Origin: a virus
Length of the DNA stretch: 22,361 bases
Strand: one strand, 5' to 3'
Virus record (IMG/VR): IMGVR_UViG_3300020159_001345
Span: 1-22,361 of that record
Shown: one piece after another, positions 2,907 through 11,372 of the stretch
How positions within the stretch are numbered: the stretch's first letter is position 1
How the letters are laid out: every line of letters begins with the position of its first letter
Notes under the pieces: generated by a model
Seen by the model: only the letters and a program-made list of their open reading frames with translations
What the model was told of the DNA's origin: nothing
Database searches by the model: none
Position numbers and translations under genes: made by a program

Positions 2907-5900
2907 ATGGCAACAAACAGTAAAGTATTCGTTTCGCCAGGTGTTTACACTTCTGAAGTTGATTTGAGTTTCGTATCTCAAAGTGTAGGGGTTACTACAT
3001 TGGGTATCGTTGGTGAGACTTTAAAAGGTCCCGCATTCGAACCAATATTTATCCGTAACTTTGACGAATTCTCAACTTTCTTTGGAGGAACTTCACCTGA
3101 GAAATTTGTAAACACCCAAATTCCTAAATATGAGTCAGCTTATATTGCAAAATCTTATTTACAACAATCTAACCAATTGTTTGTAACAAGGGTTTTAGGT
3201 CTTTCGGGTTATGACGCTGGACCATCTTGGTCTATCGTAACTAAAGCAAATGTTGACCCATCAACCATTGATAGAGTTTGTATCACAACCGCAACAACTA
3301 ATTGTGAAATAGTTTGTACTGATTATCAAGATACACAATTCACTATGGATTTCACAGGTTGTACGTCATCATCTAATAGTATCACATTAACAACAAGTTC
3401 ATTACCAGGTTCTTTATTAAGTAGGTTAAATTTACCTTATGAAAATTTTGATGGAACAGTTAGTAATATTGATGAAAACTTCAAATCACAAGTGTTTGCA
3501 ATAATGAACACACCTGATTTAGAACCTTCATCAATATATTATTACGGTGCAGTTCCCGGAACTTTCTATAGTGCTAATACCAATAATGGTTATTCGGCAA
3601 GAACTGATGTATTCCAAGTTAGTGATATGAATTCCGATAATATCAATTACGCTGACCCGGTTAATGATGCTTGGTATTACGCAATGTTTGATAACATCGG
3701 TGGTGGTCAATATACAGGTTCTTCTTTTTACAGTTATGTAACAGGGTTAACACAAACATCAACATCATCAACTTGTGCATCTTTCAATAACTATCAGATT
3801 TTTGGTCACGTTACATCAGCTGTTACAACAAACACAGGTTCTAATTACAGTGACACAAATAATGTTCCAACATTCCCTCAAGGTGTAACACAAGGTACAG
3901 GATTAACAGTTAATATTTTAACAGATAGTGGTGCTATCACAGGTGTAACTATTAGTAATGCAGGTTCAGGTTATCAAATTGGTGATGTATTAATCATTGA
4001 TAGTGGTGACCAAAATGCTGAAATAACAATATCAGGTGTAACATCAACTGAAGGTTGTATTGATTATAATAGTAATATAATAACAGTGGTTTTACCTGAT
4101 AACGTTTCATATAATAACAACTCAGTATTGGTTTCATCGTTTATTGCTTGTACTAATGACGTTAAAATTGGTCTAACAACTCAATTCTCATCAGGGTCGA
4201 CTAATAGTTTCTCAGGTGGTAGTCAAACATATTCATTAACATCAACAAGTAATTCAGTAGTTAAAAATTTTGTAGTTAATGTTAAACACGATGATTTTTG
4301 TAACCCAACCACAGTTTGTAACGTAGGAACATTAGACCCAGGTGTTACTGTTAATTGTTTCTCAGGAACAGTTGTTGGTAATCAAATTGAATTTGTTGGT
4401 GAAGCATATAAAGACTTTGACGATTTAGTTGTTGCAACTTTACGTTCAAGAGGTCTTAATTCAGATGGTGCTGGAGCTGTTTATGAAGTTCAAGATTACC
4501 TAACAGGTGTGACATTAGATATGTCAGGTGTTTATTCAGGTGTTACTAAAAATCCATATTCAACATTTGTTGTTAATGTAACAAATAAAGATAATGAATC
4601 TTTATCGTTCCAAACATCATTCACAAATTCGGATTCAAGATACATTAGTAAAGTATTTGGTTCAAGTAATTTCTCTAAAGATAGAAAATCAGTTCCTTTA
4701 TTTGTTGAGGAAAGATATCAAACATTATTAAATTATGGTTGGAGAAAAGGTTATATTAGAGGTTTACATACTAGTTTAGTTAAATTACCTGATGCTAGAC
4801 AAGGTAGTGACCCATCATCAATTGGTTTCTATTTAGAACAATACCAAACTCCAAAAACACCTTGGTTTGTGTCAGAATTAAGAGGTACTAATGTATATAA
4901 TCTATTTAAATTTACAACAATTTCAGATGGTAATGAAGCAAATATTGAAGTTAAAGTTTCAATTGCTAACATCTCATTTGGAAATGGAACTTTTGATGTT
5001 ATTGTTAGAGATTACTTTGACACAGATGCTGCTCCTCAAGTTATTGAGAAATTTACAAACTGTTCAATGAATCCTAACGATAATAGTTATATTGCTAAAA
5101 AAGTTGGAACATCCGATGGTGAGTATCAATTAAACTCAAAATACATTATGGTTGAGGTTAATGAAGAAGCACCAATTGATTCATTACCTTGTGGTTTTGA
5201 AGGTTATAACACAAGAACTTATGCGGGACATCGTTCACCGTTCCCAATATTTAAAACTAAATATGATTTCCCTGGTGAAGTTACTTATAACCCACCATTT
5301 GGTTTACCGTCAGGTGCTGATGATTCAATTAAAAGTCCAGGTGATAATGTTAGAAGAACTTATTTAGGTATTTCAGACACTATTGGGTTTGATGTTGATT
5401 TTTCATCATACAAAGGTAAACAATTACCTTTAGATATTTGTACTCAAACAACAGGTGCGGTATGGGCAACTAAAACAAGAGGTTTCCACATGGATAATAG
5501 AGCTTCGGCAATTACTATTAATAACACATTCTACGAAAAAGTGTTTGAACCACAAGAAAATAAATATGTGATGTCAGCAATAACTGTTCCAACAACTGCG
5601 TTCTACACAGGAACTGCGAACTTTAGTTCTGACCCTGAAAATGAATCAAACCCTTATTACAGATTATACGCACGTAAATTTACTGTGTCATTCCAAGGAG
5701 GTTTTGACGGATGGGATATCTATAGAGAATCAAGAACAAACCTTGATAGATTTGTTTTAGGTAGAAGTGGTTACTTAAAAGGTGCTTGTCCTTCAACTAG
5801 ATACCCTACGGCAACAGGATGGGGAGCATTTAAACGAATCACTATTGGTGATAACACTCAAGATTGGGCAAATACTGACTACTACGCATATCTATTAGGT

Positions 5901-6764
5901 CAAAGAACTTTCGCTAATCCTGAAGCTGTTAATATTAACGTATTTGTAACACCTGGTGTTGACTATGTTAATCACTCAGATTTAGTTGAGAATGCTATTG
6001 ATATGGTTGAAAAGGATAGAGCGGATTCAATCTACATTTGTACAACACCTGACTATAACATGTTTACATCAACATTAGGTGATTCTGCAGATTTAATCTA
6101 CCCTCAAGAGGCGATTGATAACTTAGAAAACACAGGTATTGATTCTAACTATACTGCAACATATTACCCTTGGGTATTAACGAGAGATAGTGTTAATAAT
6201 ACTCAAATTTACTTACCAGCAACGGCTGAGGTGACAAGAAACTTAGCGTTAACTGATAACATCGCGTTCCCTTGGTTCGCAGCGGCAGGTTACACGAGAG
6301 GTATTGTAAATGCGATTAAGGCTCGTAAGAAGTTAACTCAAGAAGATAGAGATACTTTATATAAAGGTAGAATTAATCCAATCGCAACATTCTCAGACGT
6401 AGGAACAGTAATATGGGGTAACAAAACTCTTCAAATTAGAGAGTCAGCGTTAGATAGAATAAACGTAAGAAGATTATTATTACAAGCTCGTAAATTGATT
6501 TCAGCGGTTTCAGTGAGATTGTTGTTCGAACAAAACGACCAAAAAGTAAGACAAGATTTCTTAGATGCGGTTAACCCAATCTTAGACTCAATTAGAAGAG
6601 ATAGAGGTTTATACGATTTCCGTGTTACAGTTTCATCAGACGCAGCTGATTTAGATAGAAATCAAATGACAGGTAAGATTTACATCAAACCAACTAAATC
6701 ATTAGAGTTCATTGATATCACATTCTACATCACACCAACAGGGGCATCGTTTGAAAACATATAA
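2907..6764 (+). CDS. Tail sheath protein (gp18-like), enlarged
   Basis: The contractile sheath subunit that polymerises around the tail tube and contracts on infection. The N-terminus (VFVSPGVYTSEVDLSFVSQS) and a GIVGETLKGPAFEP segment are the standard sheath opening. Around residues 690-755 is a gp18-type domain with FDVIVRDYFDTDAAPQVIEK. From about 1000 is the IYICTTPDYN region, and the last 200 residues (AFPWFAAAGYTRGIVNAIKA, then VRRLLLQARKLISAVSVRLL and a final ISLE-like strand) form the conserved C-terminal core. At 1285 residues it is about twice T4 gp18 (659). The extra length lies mostly between about 110 and 600 and is rich in Ser, Thr, Asn and Gly. It includes a 'GTGLTVNI...NAGSGYQIGDVLII' beta module at about 326-368, a type common in surface-exposed phage structural proteins. 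The insertion probably decorates the outside of the tail. A strong terminator follows. Confidence 0.93.
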   Translation: MATNSKVFVSPGVYTSEVDLSFVSQSVGVTTLGIVGETLKGPAFEPIFIRNFDEFSTFFGGTSPEKFVNTQIPKYESAYIAKSYLQQSNQLFVTRVLGLSGYDAGPSWSIVTKANVDPSTIDRVCITTATTNCEIVCTDYQDTQFTMDFTGCTSSSNSITLTTSSLPGSLLSRLNLPYENFDGTVSNIDENFKSQVFAIMNTPDLEPSSIYYYGAVPGTFYSANTNNGYSARTDVFQVSDMNSDNINYADPVNDAWYYAMFDNIGGGQYTGSSFYSYVTGLTQTSTSSTCASFNNYQIFGHVTSAVTTNTGSNYSDTNNVPTFPQGVTQGTGLTVNILTDSGAITGVTISNAGSGYQIGDVLIIDSGDQNAEITISGVTSTEGCIDYNSNIITVVLPDNVSYNNNSVLVSSFIACTNDVKIGLTTQFSSGSTNSFSGGSQTYSLTSTSNSVVKNFVVNVKHDDFCNPTTVCNVGTLDPGVTVNCFSGTVVGNQIEFVGEAYKDFDDLVVATLRSRGLNSDGAGAVYEVQDYLTGVTLDMSGVYSGVTKNPYSTFVVNVTNKDNESLSFQTSFTNSDSRYISKVFGSSNFSKDRKSVPLFVEERYQTLLNYGWRKGYIRGLHTSLVKLPDARQGSDPSSIGFYLEQYQTPKTPWFVSELRGTNVYNLFKFTTISDGNEANIEVKVSIANISFGNGTFDVIVRDYFDTDAAPQVIEKFTNCSMNPNDNSYIAKKVGTSDGEYQLNSKYIMVEVNEEAPIDSLPCGFEGYNTRTYAGHRSPFPIFKTKYDFPGEVTYNPPFGLPSGADDSIKSPGDNVRRTYLGISDTIGFDVDFSSYKGKQLPLDICTQTTGAVWATKTRGFHMDNRASAITINNTFYEKVFEPQENKYVMSAITVPTTAFYTGTANFSSDPENESNPYYRLYARKFTVSFQGGFDGWDIYRESRTNLDRFVLGRSGYLKGACPSTRYPTATGWGAFKRITIGDNTQDWANTDYYAYLLGQRTFANPEAVNINVFVTPGVDYVNHSDLVENAIDMVEKDRADSIYICTTPDYNMFTSTLGDSADLIYPQEAIDNLENTGIDSNYTATYYPWVLTRDSVNNTQIYLPATAEVTRNLALTDNIAFPWFAAAGYTRGIVNAIKARKKLTQEDRDTLYKGRINPIATFSDVGTVIWGNKTLQIRESALDRINVRRLLLQARKLISAVSVRLLFEQNDQKVRQDFLDAVNPILDSIRRDRGLYDFRVTVSSDAADLDRNQMTGKIYIKPTKSLEFIDITFYITPTGASFENI

Positions 6765-6780
6765 CAAACAACTCTAAAAT

Positions 6781-6810
6781 AAAAAGGGAGACAAGTTCTC
6801 CCTTTTTTTT
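6781..6810 (+). terminator. Rho-independent terminator after the sheath gene
   Basis: GGGAGA (6786-6791) pairs with TCTCCC (6797-6802) around a 5-base loop CAAGT, flanked by A5 before and T8 after, which lengthen the stem to about 11 pairs. It lies 17 bases after the sheath stop and 10 bases before the candidate promoter of the next gene. Confidence 0.9.
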
Positions 6811-6830: not shown

Positions 6831-7787
6831 ATGAGTAATAGAAATTTAATAAAAAAAATTTTAAAAGAGGTTGCTGAAGAAAGAAATCTAAGATTATATG
6901 CCTTAGATTGGGATGACAATATTTTAGGAATGCCTACTAAAATTTATCTTAAAGATGAAGAGGGTAATTCTATTGGAATGCCAACAGACCATTTTGCCGA
7001 ATATAGACATTTAATCGGTAAAGAACCTTTTGAATACGAGGACTCAACAATTGTTGGATTCGACGAAGACCCGTTTAGAGATTTTACACACCCTGAAACG
7101 TTTTTAAGGGACACTATTAAAGCGGTTAAAAATAATAGATTTTCCCCAAGTTTTGAGAAATTCAAAGAGACATTAATTTATGCAAATCCATTTTCAATTA
7201 TCACGGCAAGAGGTCATAGTCCAAAGGTAATTAAAAAAGGTGTTAAATTATTTATCAACATCGCATTAACACCGGAAGAAAAACAAGAAATGATTAGTAA
7301 CATCAAAGATGTTTTGGACTTCGAAGAAATTGGAGGTTACTATAAAATGGGTGATTTGGACGATTCTCAAATGATTGACGTGTATTTAGATGAAAAAGGG
7401 GAATACTATCCTGTATCGTCAAAAGAATTCGGTCAGAGGTTTAATTTGGACTCAACTAAAGGTGCGTCTAGTCCGGAACATAATAAGAAATTAGCATTGT
7501 CAGACTTTTTAGACCAAGTATATTATAAGGTAGGTAGATTAATTGATAGTGGTAAATATGGTTCGGTTTCATTAGGATTTTCAGATGACGATATAAGTAA
7601 TGTTAGAAGTATGGTTCAACATATAGAAGATGAACTTTCAAGAGTTTACCCTGAAATACATTTTGTTGTAAAAGACACTTCTGAAGGTGGAATGAAAAAG
7701 ATAGTTATAACAAGACTTAACAATGAGGCAGACTCCGAGTCTTTACTAGAAAGTTATATGATTAAAAAAATATTAAGCTATTTATAA
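6831..7787 (+). CDS. HAD-superfamily hydrolase-like protein in the tail cluster
   Basis: 318 residues. HAD motifs are visible: motif I LDWDDNIL with Asp26 and Asp28 (nucleophile and acid/base in the family), motif II IITARGHSP with Thr125, a plausible motif III lysine in HNKKLALSDF (about 217-226), and motif IV GFSDDD (249-254) with acidic residues for the metal. These proteins are Mg-dependent phosphatases or related phosphotransferases; the substrate cannot be told, and a nucleic-acid 3'-phosphatase is one option. The region between motifs I and II (about 35-120) acts as an enlarged cap. Both ends carry a similar amphipathic stretch: NLIKKILKEV near residue 5-14 and MIKKILSYL at 310-318. 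It sits alone between the sheath terminator and the tube gene, unusual for an enzyme in a tail operon. Start choice is ATG 6831, the only good start after the terminator. Confidence 0.7.
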   Translation: MSNRNLIKKILKEVAEERNLRLYALDWDDNILGMPTKIYLKDEEGNSIGMPTDHFAEYRHLIGKEPFEYEDSTIVGFDEDPFRDFTHPETFLRDTIKAVKNNRFSPSFEKFKETLIYANPFSIITARGHSPKVIKKGVKLFINIALTPEEKQEMISNIKDVLDFEEIGGYYKMGDLDDSQMIDVYLDEKGEYYPVSSKEFGQRFNLDSTKGASSPEHNKKLALSDFLDQVYYKVGRLIDSGKYGSVSLGFSDDDISNVRSMVQHIEDELSRVYPEIHFVVKDTSEGGMKKIVITRLNNEADSESLLESYMIKKILSYL

Positions 7788-7930: not shown

Positions 7931-8419
7931 ATGGCTGATTTATTAATGAAAATGCCCATACCATATGAACCTAAAAGACAAAACAGGTTTATATTACGTT
8001 TCCCGTCAACATTGGGGATTAACGAATGGTTTGTTGAAAGTACGGCTAGACCTAAATTAACTATAAACTCAACTGAGATTCAATTCTTGAATACTTCAAC
8101 TTATGTTGCTGGTCGTTTTACTTGGGGTGATATTTCAGTTAAATTTAGAGACCCAATTGGTCCGTCAGCGTCACAAGCATTAATGGAGTGGGTTCGTTTA
8201 TGTGCTGAATCTGTAACAGGACGTATGGGTTATGCTGCGGGTTATAAGAAAAATATCGACTTGGAACTTTTGGACCCAACAGGTGTTGTTGTTGAGAAAT
8301 GGATTTTAGAAGGTGCTTGGTTAAGTAGTGTTGATTTTGGTTCATTAGGTTATAGTACTGATGGTATTGCTGAGATTAATGCAACTTTGAGACCTGACCG
8401 TTGTATATTAGTTTACTAA
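7931..8419 (+). CDS. Tail tube protein (gp19-like)
   Basis: 162 residues, the length of T4 gp19 (163). It forms the stacked hexameric rings of the inner tube through which DNA passes. The sequence has the expected features: an N-terminal strand NRFILRFPSTLGINEWFVES, a beta segment with TSTYVAGRFTWGDISVKFRD (about 56-75) and an SQALMEWVRLCAESVTG helix (about 83-99), then the closing beta hairpin LELLDPTGVVVEKWILEGAW and a C-terminal INATLRPDRCILVY. No signal peptide is present. It sits downstream of the sheath as in T4, although a HAD gene intervenes. A terminator follows 25 bases after its stop. Confidence 0.92.
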   Translation: MADLLMKMPIPYEPKRQNRFILRFPSTLGINEWFVESTARPKLTINSTEIQFLNTSTYVAGRFTWGDISVKFRDPIGPSASQALMEWVRLCAESVTGRMGYAAGYKKNIDLELLDPTGVVVEKWILEGAWLSSVDFGSLGYSTDGIAEINATLRPDRCILVY

Positions 8420-8443
8420 TCCAACAAATATAATTATTTATTC

Positions 8444-8477
8444 AATCCACGTAATTTGTTTTACGTGGATTTTTTTA
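8444..8477 (+). terminator. Rho-independent terminator after the tail tube gene
   Basis: AATCCACGTAA (8444-8454) and TTACGTGGATT (8461-8471) form an 11-base-pair stem around a 6-base loop TTTGTT, followed by an unbroken T run to about 8476. Confidence 0.92.
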
Positions 8478-8509
8478 TTGATTACTTTAGTTAAAAAAAA
8501 AGTAAATTA

Positions 8510-8517
8510 TATTTAAG
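8510..8517 (+). promoter_or_regulatory. Weak promoter-like element (TATTTAAG) for the gp26-like gene
   Basis: TATATTTAAG lies about 15 bases before the start and resembles the TATTTATA element with one mismatch in the core. Its position after the terminator argues that this gene has its own promoter, but the match is poor. Confidence 0.25.
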
Positions 8518-8531
8518 AAAAAAAGATAATT

Positions 8532-9293
8532 ATGGAAATGATTGATGAAAATGTGTTAAGGGCTTCAACTGAAAATTTTAATTTACCCCACGACGTTGTT
8601 AAATTACCTTCACAAGGTATTTTTTATAAAAGTAAAAAAAGTTCGGTGAAAGTTGGTTATTTAACGGCAAATGATGAGAATTATTTAATGAGTAACAATA
8701 ATAAAGAACATATTGTAATTTCATTATTAAGAAATAAAGTATATGAACATGATTTAAGACCTGAAGAATTAATAGAATCAGATGTTGAAGCTGTTTTATT
8801 GTTTTTACGAAATTCGTCATTTGGTCCTGAATATAAATTAAATTTAATTGACCCTAAGACAAATAAAATTTTTGAACATAGTGAGGTAATTGATAATCTA
8901 TCATTAAAAGAAACAACTATAAAACCTGATTTAGATGGGACATTTACAACTAAACTTCCAAAAACAGGTGTTACTGTAAAATTAAAACCAATTACATTTT
9001 TTGAAACGGTTGAGATGGAGAAATTAGGTGAAAAATATCCTAAAGGGATTACTGTTCCAATTATCACAAATCGTTTAACTAAAGAAATTGTATCTGTTGA
9101 TGGTAATGAAGACCTTGGATTTATAGCACAATTTGTTTCAACACTACCAATTATGGATTCAAAGTATATTAAAAAATATTTAAAAGATAACGTCCCCCAA
9201 ATTGACTTAACAAGACAAACTTACGCCCCGTCAGGAGAATTGGTTACATTTAGTGTATCCTTTGGGGTGGACTTTTTTCGACCTTTCTTCTGA
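8532..9293 (+). CDS. Tail assembly / baseplate hub assembly protein (gp26-like), zero-frame product
   Basis: 253 residues from ATG 8532 to TGA 9291-9293. The N-terminal LPSQGIFYKSKKSSVKVGYL followed by TANDENYL is typical of the T4 gp26-type baseplate protein family found in T4-like phages. Further features are the DVEAVLLFLRN helix (about 85-95), a KTGVTVKLKPITFFETVE segment, and a C-terminal beta stretch APSGELVTFSVSFGVDFF. The family assists hub and tape-measure assembly; I infer a tape-measure chaperone role because the gene is directly upstream of the tape measure, as lambda G/T is. The open +1 frame overlaps from 9211 and runs to 9438, so the tail end of this product is probably alternative to the fusion described in the next entry. 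Confidence 0.75.
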   Translation: MEMIDENVLRASTENFNLPHDVVKLPSQGIFYKSKKSSVKVGYLTANDENYLMSNNNKEHIVISLLRNKVYEHDLRPEELIESDVEAVLLFLRNSSFGPEYKLNLIDPKTNKIFEHSEVIDNLSLKETTIKPDLDGTFTTKLPKTGVTVKLKPITFFETVEMEKLGEKYPKGITVPIITNRLTKEIVSVDGNEDLGFIAQFVSTLPIMDSKYIKKYLKDNVPQIDLTRQTYAPSGELVTFSVSFGVDFFRPFF

Positions 9294-9438
9294 TTATGGA
9301 AGATATATTCTCGAAGAATATTATCTCTTATCCAAGATATTAAGAACACAATATAGTGAATTTCTAAAAATACCAACATATATTCGTAAATTTTTAGTTA
9401 ACCGAATTATTGAAGATTATACACCAAAGGAAAAATAA
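8532..9438 (+). CDS. Predicted +1 frameshift product, about 301 aa tail assembly chaperone
   Basis: A second frame, open between 9211 and the TAA at 9436-9438, has no own convincing start: only GTG at 9253, inside the upstream gene. The natural junction is T6C at 9273-9279, read as GAC TTT TTT CGA in frame 0. A tRNA-Phe on TTT (codon 249) slipping forward one base meets TTC, and GAC CTT TCT TCT follow, giving DFF-DLSSDYGRYILEEYYLL. The downstream peptide (YSEFLKIPTYIRKFLVNRII) is hydrophobic and helical, like the T half of G-T chaperones, which bind the tape measure. The product would have 249 + 52 = 301 residues. A -2 slip on the same T run gives the same frame and one extra Phe. A homopolymer sequencing error is the main alternative. 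Confidence 0.55.
9273..9282 (+). promoter_or_regulatory. Candidate programmed +1 (or -2) frameshift site
   Basis: The run TTTTTTC followed by GAC lies 12 bases before the zero-frame TGA (9291-9293). The waiting A-site codon is CGA, seldom used here compared with AGA, and the slipped pairing is perfect (TTC with the GAA anticodon). A hairpin starts 22 bases downstream (9301-9326). Confidence 0.5.
9301..9326 (+). other. RNA stem-loop downstream of the frameshift site
   Basis: AGATATATTCT (9301-9311) pairs with AGAATAT and ATCT (9315-9326) around loop CGA, with one bulged T at 9322. The stem has 11 pairs but is A/T-rich, and its start is further from the slip site than classic stimulators. Confidence 0.35.
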
Positions 9439-9453
9439 TCCTTTGGTGTATTT
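9419..9453 (+). terminator. Hairpin terminator overlapping the end of the chaperone gene
   Basis: ACACCAAAGGA (9421-9431) pairs with TCCTTTGGTGT (9439-9449), and two more pairs extend the stem outward to 13. The 7-base loop AAAATAA contains the stop codon TAA (9436-9438). The T tract that follows is short and interrupted, so it is a weaker terminator than the other two, or a processing or attenuation hairpin. Confidence 0.65.
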
Positions 9454-9455
9454 AT
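9449..9455 (+). promoter_or_regulatory. Candidate late promoter element (TATTTAT) for the tape-measure gene
   Basis: GTGTATTTATTATAT lies 18 bases before the ATG and begins within the last stem base pair of the preceding hairpin, so terminator and promoter overlap. Confidence 0.35.
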
Positions 9456-9473
9456 TATATAGACATTTGAAAT

Positions 9474-11372
9474 ATGAACGAAGAAAAAGATGGCGCACCT
9501 GTTGGTGACGCTTTATCAGGTTATAAGACTAGCGTTGAAGAAGCGGTGCTTAGTAATTTTGATTCTAAGAAAATAGTAGAGACTATGGAAACGGTTGAAA
9601 AATCAACATCTAACCTCCAAAAATATATGGGTGTTGGTGCTGAAATGTCAGATGAAATTCGTAGTGCTATGACTGACGCCGCATCTAAGATAATTAGTAT
9701 GGGTGGTGGTATGGAGCATTTAGAGTCAATCCAAAAAGGATTACTTGAAGCTACAGGTAGAAATGTTATCGCATCAAATGAATACTTTGATGAAATATAC
9801 GCAGCGTCTGAAGTTTCAGGTGTTAGTATGGATGCTTTACAAAAAGGTTTCATAGATGCTGGATACAATATGAATAATATTGGGACTGAGATGCAATCAG
9901 TATTAGATACATCAAGAGCGTTGGGTGTTAGTATGCAGGCGGTTTCAAGTGCGGTTGTGGGTAATATGTCGGCTTTAGATTCACACAATTTTCAAGGTGG
10001 AGTTGAAGGTTTAGCTAAAATGGCAGCAACCTCAGCAACATTACGTGTTGATTTGGGGTCTATGATGAGGTCGGTGGATAAAGCGTTTGACCCTCAAGGG
10101 GCTATTGATATGGCGTCGGCTTTCCAAAGATTAGGTGTTACACAAAGTGAATTGTTAGACCCACTTAAATTGATGAATATGTCAATGAATGACCCTGAAC
10201 AATTTATGAAGTCAATTAGTGATATGGGTAAATCATTGACTGAATTAGATGAAAAAGGTAATATTAGAATTGCTCCTGGTAGTATTCGAAGAATGAAACA
10301 ATTGGCGGATGCTGCGGGTATGATGCCTGAAGAATTCGCTAAAATGTCTAAGGCAAGTGCTGAGTTGGATATCAAAATGAAAAAAATCTCATTCCCTGAT
10401 TTCGCAACTGAGGAACAAAAAACGATGATTGCCAACATTTCCCAAATGAAAGATGGTAAGATTCAAATGAAGGTTGATGGGGAAATGAAAGATGTGAATG
10501 AAGTTCTTCAAAAATTTAAAGGTGACCAAAAAGGTTTACAGGAATTTTTAGAGTCTTCACAACCAAAAAGTATGGAAGAATTAGCTTTAGAACAATTAAC
10601 GACACAACAAAGTATTGATGCCGGAATTAGTTCTATTGCTAATAGAACGGGTTTAGCATTTGCGGGTTCTAAAACTGGTGGTAAAATTAGGGAGGCTGAG
10701 CGAAAAATTGTTAGAGCGGGAACGGATGCTGTTGGAAATACTTTTGATGTGTCTAAATTAAGACAAGGGTTTGATAATGAAGTTGGTGTTTTAACGCAAT
10801 CTTTGATTAAATTGTCAAAAGGTGAGGGTTCATTAACAGAAGTTGGACAAAGTTTAACAACTGTTTTAAATGATGTTAAAGGAGGTTTTGGTAATATATA
10901 TGAAGATTTAAAGAAAAACTTAGGAACCGAAGAGCAAAAATTATTATCATCGACTAATGAATTTGTTCAGATGTTAAATACTGCGGTTGTTAGTGGGGCT
11001 GATTTCTTTTCAAAAAATGAAAAACTTGGGGATGTTGATAAAAAAATATCACCTGAAAAAACAAATGAAGGGAAAAATTTACAAGTTGATATGTCAAAAA
11101 TTAAACCTGAAAATAACATTGATGTTTTTAAACAAATTGAAACTAAATCAGGATTAGGTAAAGAACAAGTCTTAGAAATGGCTAATTTAATGGCTAAAGA
11201 AAATGTTTCAGGAGATATTGTTTTAACTGTTAAAGTTGATACTTCTGATAGTGAGTCTAAATCTAAATTAGAAAGATTATTACAAAGTGATACACAAATT
11301 CGTGACTTATTAGTTAAAGCAATCTCTAACGCTAAATCTGATGATGGTCGAAAAGGATATATTAAAAAATAA
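9474..11372 (+). CDS. Tail tape measure protein (gp29-like)
   Basis: 632 residues with long helical, Ala/Ser/Gly/Met-rich stretches and repeated short helices, such as ASEVSGVSMDALQKGFIDAG (about 116-135), typical of tape measure proteins. A KTG-containing, glycine-rich patch (AFAGSKTGGKIREAERKIVR) marks the middle. A lysine-rich C-terminus follows. It determines tail length and is ejected ahead of the DNA. The length is close to T4 gp29 (590), consistent with a tail of roughly 95 nm if 1.5 A per residue applies. No enzymatic domain is seen. Immediate upstream position of a gp26/G-T-like chaperone supports the call. No Shine-Dalgarno sequence is visible before the ATG (AGACATTTGAAATATG), in line with the rest of the window. 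Confidence 0.8.
   Translation: MNEEKDGAPVGDALSGYKTSVEEAVLSNFDSKKIVETMETVEKSTSNLQKYMGVGAEMSDEIRSAMTDAASKIISMGGGMEHLESIQKGLLEATGRNVIASNEYFDEIYAASEVSGVSMDALQKGFIDAGYNMNNIGTEMQSVLDTSRALGVSMQAVSSAVVGNMSALDSHNFQGGVEGLAKMAATSATLRVDLGSMMRSVDKAFDPQGAIDMASAFQRLGVTQSELLDPLKLMNMSMNDPEQFMKSISDMGKSLTELDEKGNIRIAPGSIRRMKQLADAAGMMPEEFAKMSKASAELDIKMKKISFPDFATEEQKTMIANISQMKDGKIQMKVDGEMKDVNEVLQKFKGDQKGLQEFLESSQPKSMEELALEQLTTQQSIDAGISSIANRTGLAFAGSKTGGKIREAERKIVRAGTDAVGNTFDVSKLRQGFDNEVGVLTQSLIKLSKGEGSLTEVGQSLTTVLNDVKGGFGNIYEDLKKNLGTEEQKLLSSTNEFVQMLNTAVVSGADFFSKNEKLGDVDKKISPEKTNEGKNLQVDMSKIKPENNIDVFKQIETKSGLGKEQVLEMANLMAKENVSGDIVLTVKVDTSDSESKSKLERLLQSDTQIRDLLVKAISNAKSDDGRKGYIKK

Follow-up and report, generated by a model that had tools for sequence, protein, structure and literature searches.

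In a window of 22,361 nucleotides (the whole stretch of viral DNA analysed), a T4-related myophage carries a probable tail assembly chaperone gene that, judging from its sequence and those of its relatives, is likely to undergo a ribosomal +1 frameshift. A conserved RNA hairpin lies just upstream of the slip site and may well stimulate the slip; more tentatively, such a natural 5' hairpin could be a cis-encoded stand-in for the internal Shine-Dalgarno (SD) duplex in phages of Bacteroidota, in which the anti-SD is occluded. Frameshifts in helper proteins of this kind are well known; the apparent novelty lies in the combination of a forward skip, a conserved hairpin upstream of it and bacteria that scarcely use SD pairing. 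If this reading is true, the short/long chaperone rule would reach a large group of T4-related phages, with one +1-shift gene doing the work of the two paralogous T4 genes 26 and 51. Conserved in nature, the upstream hairpin would also be a test case for frame movement by mRNA that refolds behind the ribosome, and this in hosts to which the usual SD explanation should hardly apply.

Two overlapping reading frames joined at a T6C site

The body of the gene is a frame-0 ORF with the C-terminus ...FGVDFFRPFF*, overlapped by a +1-frame ORF that runs from a GTG at 9253 to a stop at 9436–9438. The features of the coding region are as follows.

8532–9293, + strand: frame-0 ORF of 253 aa, predicted short form of a T4 gp26-type (PF12322) chaperone (TAC-N or 'G'), from Pfam, PHROG and AlphaFold (AF2)
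9273–9279, + strand: slip site TTTTTTC
9276–9278, + strand: P-site TTT, which would re-pair to TTC at 9277–9279, with CGA (9279–9281) in the A site
9280–9438, + strand: +1-frame C-terminal extension, 52 aa plus stop, putative TAC-C or 'T' domain, from dN/dS, stop counts and AF2
9291–9293, + strand: frame-0 stop TGA (TAA, TAG or TGA in relatives)

Read in frame 0, positions 9270–9293 are GAC TTT TTT CGA CCT TTC TTC TGA, and the two frames meet at GAC TTT TTT CGA (9270–9281). A slip from the TTT at 9276–9278 to the TTC at 9277–9279 yields DFF-DLSSDYGRYILEEYY... and a predicted long form of 301 aa (249 + 52). The original prediction had placed a shift here, and its coordinates and DFF-DLSSDYGRYILEEYY junction proved right when compared with the ORF list and the translation.

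We propose that most ribosomes end in frame 0 and release the 253-aa short form. In a fraction of them, while the E site holds UUU and the A site an Arg codon, CGN, the peptidyl-tRNA-Phe would slip from UUU to UUC, and these ribosomes would go on to produce the 301-aa long form, whose C-terminal domain is predicted to have three helices. If the parallel with lambda gpG/gpGT holds, coating of the tape measure would fall to the short form and recruitment of tail tube subunits to the long one.

The slip site and both frames are conserved

A first protein search retrieved three IMG/VR relatives with 92, 71 and 70% identity, and from an alignment search 80 of at least 443 were retained. Across these protein searches, each of the 84 sequences (the three and the 80 relatives included) has TTTTTTCG, and every relative found there that was not cut by a contig end had the frame-0 stop and an extension of 50–52 aa. 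At the DNA level, the pattern GANTTTTTTCGNCCNTTNTTNTRR gave at least 204 matches, and the 204 listed are all in ORFs ending RPFF* and followed by a +1 extension; this pattern includes the slip site itself, and the invariance of the site was therefore judged from the protein searches. A further scan added relatives with other Gly codons, and in a marine-type sister clade (loci L213, L215, L218, L219, L220, L222, L227, L228, L233, L248 and L249) frame 0 ends FFRPFYGI* after the same T6CG slip site. The T6C site, the frame-0 stop and the +1 extension are shared by about 160 distinct IMG/VR relatives, the most divergent of them at 36% protein identity.

One T less would make the gene a single ORF, and the original prediction had named a T5 run in the raw reads, or relatives conserving neither the T6C site nor the end of frame 0, as outcomes that would speak against it, calling for a comparison of the T run and both frames in related phages. 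That comparison gave the opposite result. The same T6 recurs in the roughly 160 distinct relatives, whose sequences come from many different contigs and samples, and both frames are selected; sequencing error is therefore ruled out by conservation and the probability of an assembly error or a decayed gene is close to nil. Purifying selection acts on the extension in the +1 frame only: in that frame, dN/dS is 0.10 and none of 125 distinct sequences has a stop, whereas the two remaining frames give dN/dS values of 1.1 and 2.2 and are interrupted by stops in 124 and 125 of the sequences.

The extension might instead be started independently, at TTG 9262 or GTG 9253, as a separate small protein, with the help of GGAGA and a looped-out hairpin. 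Of 159 relatives, 134 do have a start codon at −11 relative to T6 (TTG where the sequence reads TTTGGGG), and a looped-out hairpin would bring the nearly invariant GGAGAA to about 5 nt from that codon. However, 13 of the 159 relatives lack any +1-frame ATG, GTG or TTG ahead of the conserved domain, and 8 carry a TAG in that frame, at positions −5 to −3 relative to the T-run; in these 13 and 8 relatives the extension would be expressible only by a shift at the site. Initiation at TTG or GTG is thereby excluded for the relatives that have no start codon, and the TAG just 5' of T6 places the shift at the slip site. Moreover, the candidate start codon lies partly within the outer stem of the RNA element described below and these genomes hardly use SD motifs. 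We consider an independent start very improbable and a shift at T6C the better reading.

A scan of bacterial and archaeal genomes for remote relatives returned only one, at 30% identity, on a contig from a Prevotella MAG (L264); its gp26-like gene (6001–6700) has no obvious shifted extension.

The direction of the shift in distant phages

The +1 arrangement was also found in phages of Flavobacterium, Rhodothermus, Microcystis, Bacillus and Streptococcus. Translations placed a +1 extension after AAC TTT TTT TGG in Microcystis phage Mel-JY01, GAA TTC TTT CGT in Streptococcus phage GXN1, GAA TTT TTT CAC in Bacillus phage SP-15 and AAC TTT CTA in the uncultured LR756508, while the DNA, read by eye, placed one after AGC TTT CTT TGG in Flavobacterium phage immuto and TCC TTT TTT TGG in Rhodothermus phage RM378. 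The slip codons are thus UUU-C, UUU-U or CUU-U, and +1 re-pairing is possible in all the phages compared. In immuto the junction of the long form would read ...GVSFLGLTPEYR if CUU moves to UUU and ...GVSFFGLTPEYR if UUU moves to UUC.

The original prediction had left the direction as +1 or −2. On a U6 run the P-site tRNA could indeed re-pair with UUU at −2, as in Mu, which would lead to the same frame and add a Phe. In GXN1 and LR756508, however, a −2 shift would set tRNA-Phe on TCT and ACT, respectively, and because neither phage could re-pair in this way, +1 is favoured and a −2 shift is extremely unlikely.

Where these distant phages are annotated, no fusion is recorded for the extension. 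If the +1 reading is true, GenBank annotation has overlooked an extension of about 50 aa, or entered it as a separate hypothetical gene, in phages that include those of Flavobacterium and Rhodothermus. In Xanthomonas phage XacN1 (L010, ~3747–3760), a gp26-type gene has a −1-frame extension after GCT TTT TTT ATT; the gp26-type family seems to use both shift directions.

A conserved stem-loop upstream of the slip site

A covarying stem-loop that the original prediction had not seen is conserved at 9225–9268, its 3' end 4 nt ahead of the T-run. It consists of the following parts.

9225–9229, + strand: outer stem, 5' arm GCCCC, pairing with 9264–9268 (helix 99.1% paired)
9234–9239, + strand: GGAGAA of the internal loop, nearly invariant at the codon level (GGA in 136/140)
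9242–9248, + strand: inner hairpin, 5' arm GGTTACA (pairs 38–50 and 36–52)
9254–9260, + strand: inner hairpin, 3' arm TGTATCC, pairing with 9242–9248, with covariation
9264–9268, + strand: outer stem, 3' arm GGGGT (Gly codon GGG in 134/140)

Several comparisons indicate that this element is base-paired. In corrected mutual information, calculated from 105 non-redundant sequences with an effective number of only about 8, the predicted pairs 38–50 and 36–52 ranked first and second of 2346 column pairs, and the outer-stem pairs 20–59 and 19–60 ranked fourth and sixth. Among 67 sequences, 84.5% of cells were paired, compared with 74.1 ± 0.9 after shuffling, and the covariation score was 0.323, compared with 0.168 ± 0.011 for shuffled sequences; sliding the partners, a control in which relatedness is preserved, gave no more than 0.138. 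Folding of the 45-nt element gave a mean z of −2.4 relative to a synonymous-codon null in 117 sequences, all of them below zero, and −0.03 in control windows.

Wobble bases are nearly fixed at three codons of the element. At one Ala position, 117 sequences have GCC and 4 have GCA, although GCC makes up 15 of the 295 Ala codons of the window, and the two Gly positions hold GGA and GGG, as listed above, where the main Gly codon of the window is GGT. Natural variants that restore pairing include GCACC/GGTGT and TGTCC/GGACC; the wobble–wobble covariation of the outer stem comes from few variants (3 A-U and 2 U-A of 144), with one A-C mismatch (L251). In the marine sister clade the slip site is kept and the outer stem is often broken, and the stem is therefore not universal. 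A search of 8400–9600 against Rfam 15 gave nothing near the gathering score, and our search of open-access papers turned up no description of an upstream stem-loop of this kind. GGAGAA (9234–9239) has no obvious pairing partner: a pairing of its region with the downstream TTCTTCTGA, seen by eye, had no covariation support, and dual coding accounts for the downstream part as well.

In our proposal the stem-loop, by folding again behind the ribosome, would favour the forward slip and so stand in for the SD duplex responsible for +1 shifting in prfB. Hairpins placed upstream in a 70S system were found to mimic the SD duplex and to stimulate +1 shifting (PMC6321510); they acted near the E site and in the forward direction, as proposed for the present one, the difference being that they belonged to engineered reporters whereas this is a natural, conserved element. 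The likeness to prfB extends to the +1 direction, to P-site tRNA re-pairing on YUU-Y and to a stimulator, here a candidate, just 5' of the site. In prfB, however, the A site holds a stop codon, where CGN is found in all 84 protein-search sequences, and the stimulator is a pairing with 16S rRNA and not an intramolecular stem-loop. The prfB-type SD, which sits about 3 nt ahead of the P codon, is absent here, the nearest G-run being GGGG at 9264–9267, 8 nt away. An SD-like role for this GGGG was considered and rejected: it covaries with CCCC at 9226–9229 and the genomes hardly use SD motifs, and RNA pairing is accordingly preferred. Counting against a role of the hairpin, the end of the stem is 7 nt from the P-site codon, farther than the SD in prfB.

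A nascent stem-loop beside a T-run could also act on RNA polymerase, which would drop one U in some transcripts and leave the long form to ordinary translation. We regard this as the main and a serious rival to ribosomal shifting, though an unlikely one. The closest likeness is an IS of Roseiflexus, in which, according to a review, a nascent stem-loop adjoining T5C5 deletes one base (Penno 2015, in PMC5009743). In both cases a stem-loop is followed by a short T-run and a one-base deletion gives the needed frame, and the stem 4 nt before T6 would be about as far from the 3' end of the RNA, although the Roseiflexus stem is adjacent to its T5C5 and the stem here is set off from T6 by the 4-nt spacer. 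However, the shifted arrangement is kept in relatives that have no run, namely the +1-type GXN1 (GAATTCTTTCGTCCC), LR756508 (AACTTTCTATTC) and immuto (AGCTTTCTTTGG). The base after the run also argues against polymerase slippage. It is an invariant C in the 84 protein-search sequences, although the main Arg codon of the window is AGA (140/218), and a fixed C is needed for re-pairing to UUC and not for slippage of the polymerase. The original prediction had a rarely used CGA waiting in the A site; an Arg CGN codon is indeed kept there, but CGA itself varies, any third base occurring in relatives.

Host and Shine-Dalgarno use

An SD-like motif precedes 2.9% of 611 ATG-start ORFs of the family, compared with 7.7% at a control position and 62% in a T4 stretch (13 ORFs). 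These ORFs are enriched in A at −3, −6, −12 and −13, the positions at which A has been reported in F. johnsoniae (PMC6847099). Relatives of 308 kb and 272 kb encode bS21, as do huge phages that have been assigned to freshwater Bacteroidetes (PMC9723584), although the window is a 22-kb fragment. From the scarcity of SD motifs, the A at these positions and the bS21 of the relatives, the host of the virus is probably a member of the Bacteroidota. Two studies describe the anti-SD of Bacteroidia ribosomes as occluded (PMC8710568; PMC12421855), and the second reports that prfB shifting is inefficient in F. johnsoniae. In the 308-kb relative (L268), bS21 (1483–1686) is encoded on the opposite strand and is flanked, two genes off to each side, by a head maturation protease and a portal-like gene, a setting like that in the huge phages of freshwater Bacteroidetes (PMC9723584).

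A probable T4 gp26-type tail assembly chaperone

The gene lies at 8532–9438, between two neighbours on the same strand.

7931–8419, + strand: tail tube gene (phrog_4542 tail tube, E=3e-27)
9474–11372, + strand: ORF of 632 aa in tape measure position

Flavobacterium phage immuto has the same gene order, with the gene in the place of the 9474–11372 ORF annotated as tape measure; that ORF had no Pfam family above the cut-off and no convincing PHROG, and we call it a putative tape measure by position alone. The body of the chaperone gene matched PF12322 (E=2.3e-6, 27.9 bits for a cut-off of 24.5) and the phrog_150 baseplate hub (E=1.2e-11), and PF12322 was matched at E ≤ 0.01 by 49 of 49 relatives, one of them (L001) just below the cut-off at 24.3. 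Modelled as separate parts with AF2, the body reached a pLDDT of 89.7 and the extension preceded by FF (54 residues) a pLDDT of 90.7, as three helices; no solved structure in the PDB was found to match either model. Gene order, PF12322 and the short/long architecture are all consistent with a role as tail assembly chaperone, in support of the frameshifted chaperone of the original prediction.

Chaperones of the lambda G/GT type come as a short and a long protein at a fixed ratio; they attach to the tape measure and the tube and are not found in virions. As in lambda gpG/gpGT, the present gene is the next upstream of the tape measure position, and its predicted short and long forms share an N-terminus; at the sequence level, the shift likewise lies near the 3' end and adds a small C-terminal domain. 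It differs in its body, which is of the T4 gp26 type (PF12322), and in its direction, lambda slipping by −1 and this gene by a predicted +1 with an upstream stem-loop. The extension, being in the +1 frame, does not follow a −1 heptanucleotide X XXY YYZ, which is typical, though not definitional, of the lambda type. The lambda proteins were described by Xu, Hendrix and Duda (2004; cited in PMC9024508) and are covered in a review (PMC5009743), and HSTV-2 is thought to use +1 (PMC5009743).

T4 gp26 and gp51 belong to the same Pfam family as the chaperone described here. In T4 they are two paralogous genes, whereas the window holds one gene with a +1 extension. T4 gp26 consists of the body only (PF12322 match 1–206 of 208) and gp51 of the body with a 48-aa C-terminal extension (match 1–201 of 249). 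Profile comparison of our extension with the C-terminus of gp51 gave a local P = 2e-4 and a probability of 47%, which is suggestive of a relationship. The full-length fused family profile had no significant match to gp51 or gp26, and the link to these proteins therefore comes from Pfam. A frameshift in a gp26-type protein had been thought noteworthy in the original prediction; it is less surprising in light of the proposal, cited in PMC10885494 and PMC12846349, that gp26 and gp51 are the chaperones of T4-like phages, encoded by a short and a long gene (Vladimirov, Gautam and Davidson, 2022). Since poly-T −1 signals are mentioned for TAC-N genes of T4-like phages (PMC12846349), frameshifting as such in the PF12322 family is not new.

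A terminator-like hairpin of 13 pairs (9419–9451) lies between the chaperone and the next gene, overlapping the last codons of the +1 extension, and similar hairpins are found 3' of the sheath (6781–6807) and tail tube (8444–8471) genes. The 1285-aa tail sheath (2907–6764) has sheath domains only at about 991–1283, with a large N-terminal remainder. Between the sheath and tube genes, a 318-aa ORF (6831–7787) had no Pfam match at E ≤ 1; it carries a DWDDN motif near its start and looks HAD-like by eye.
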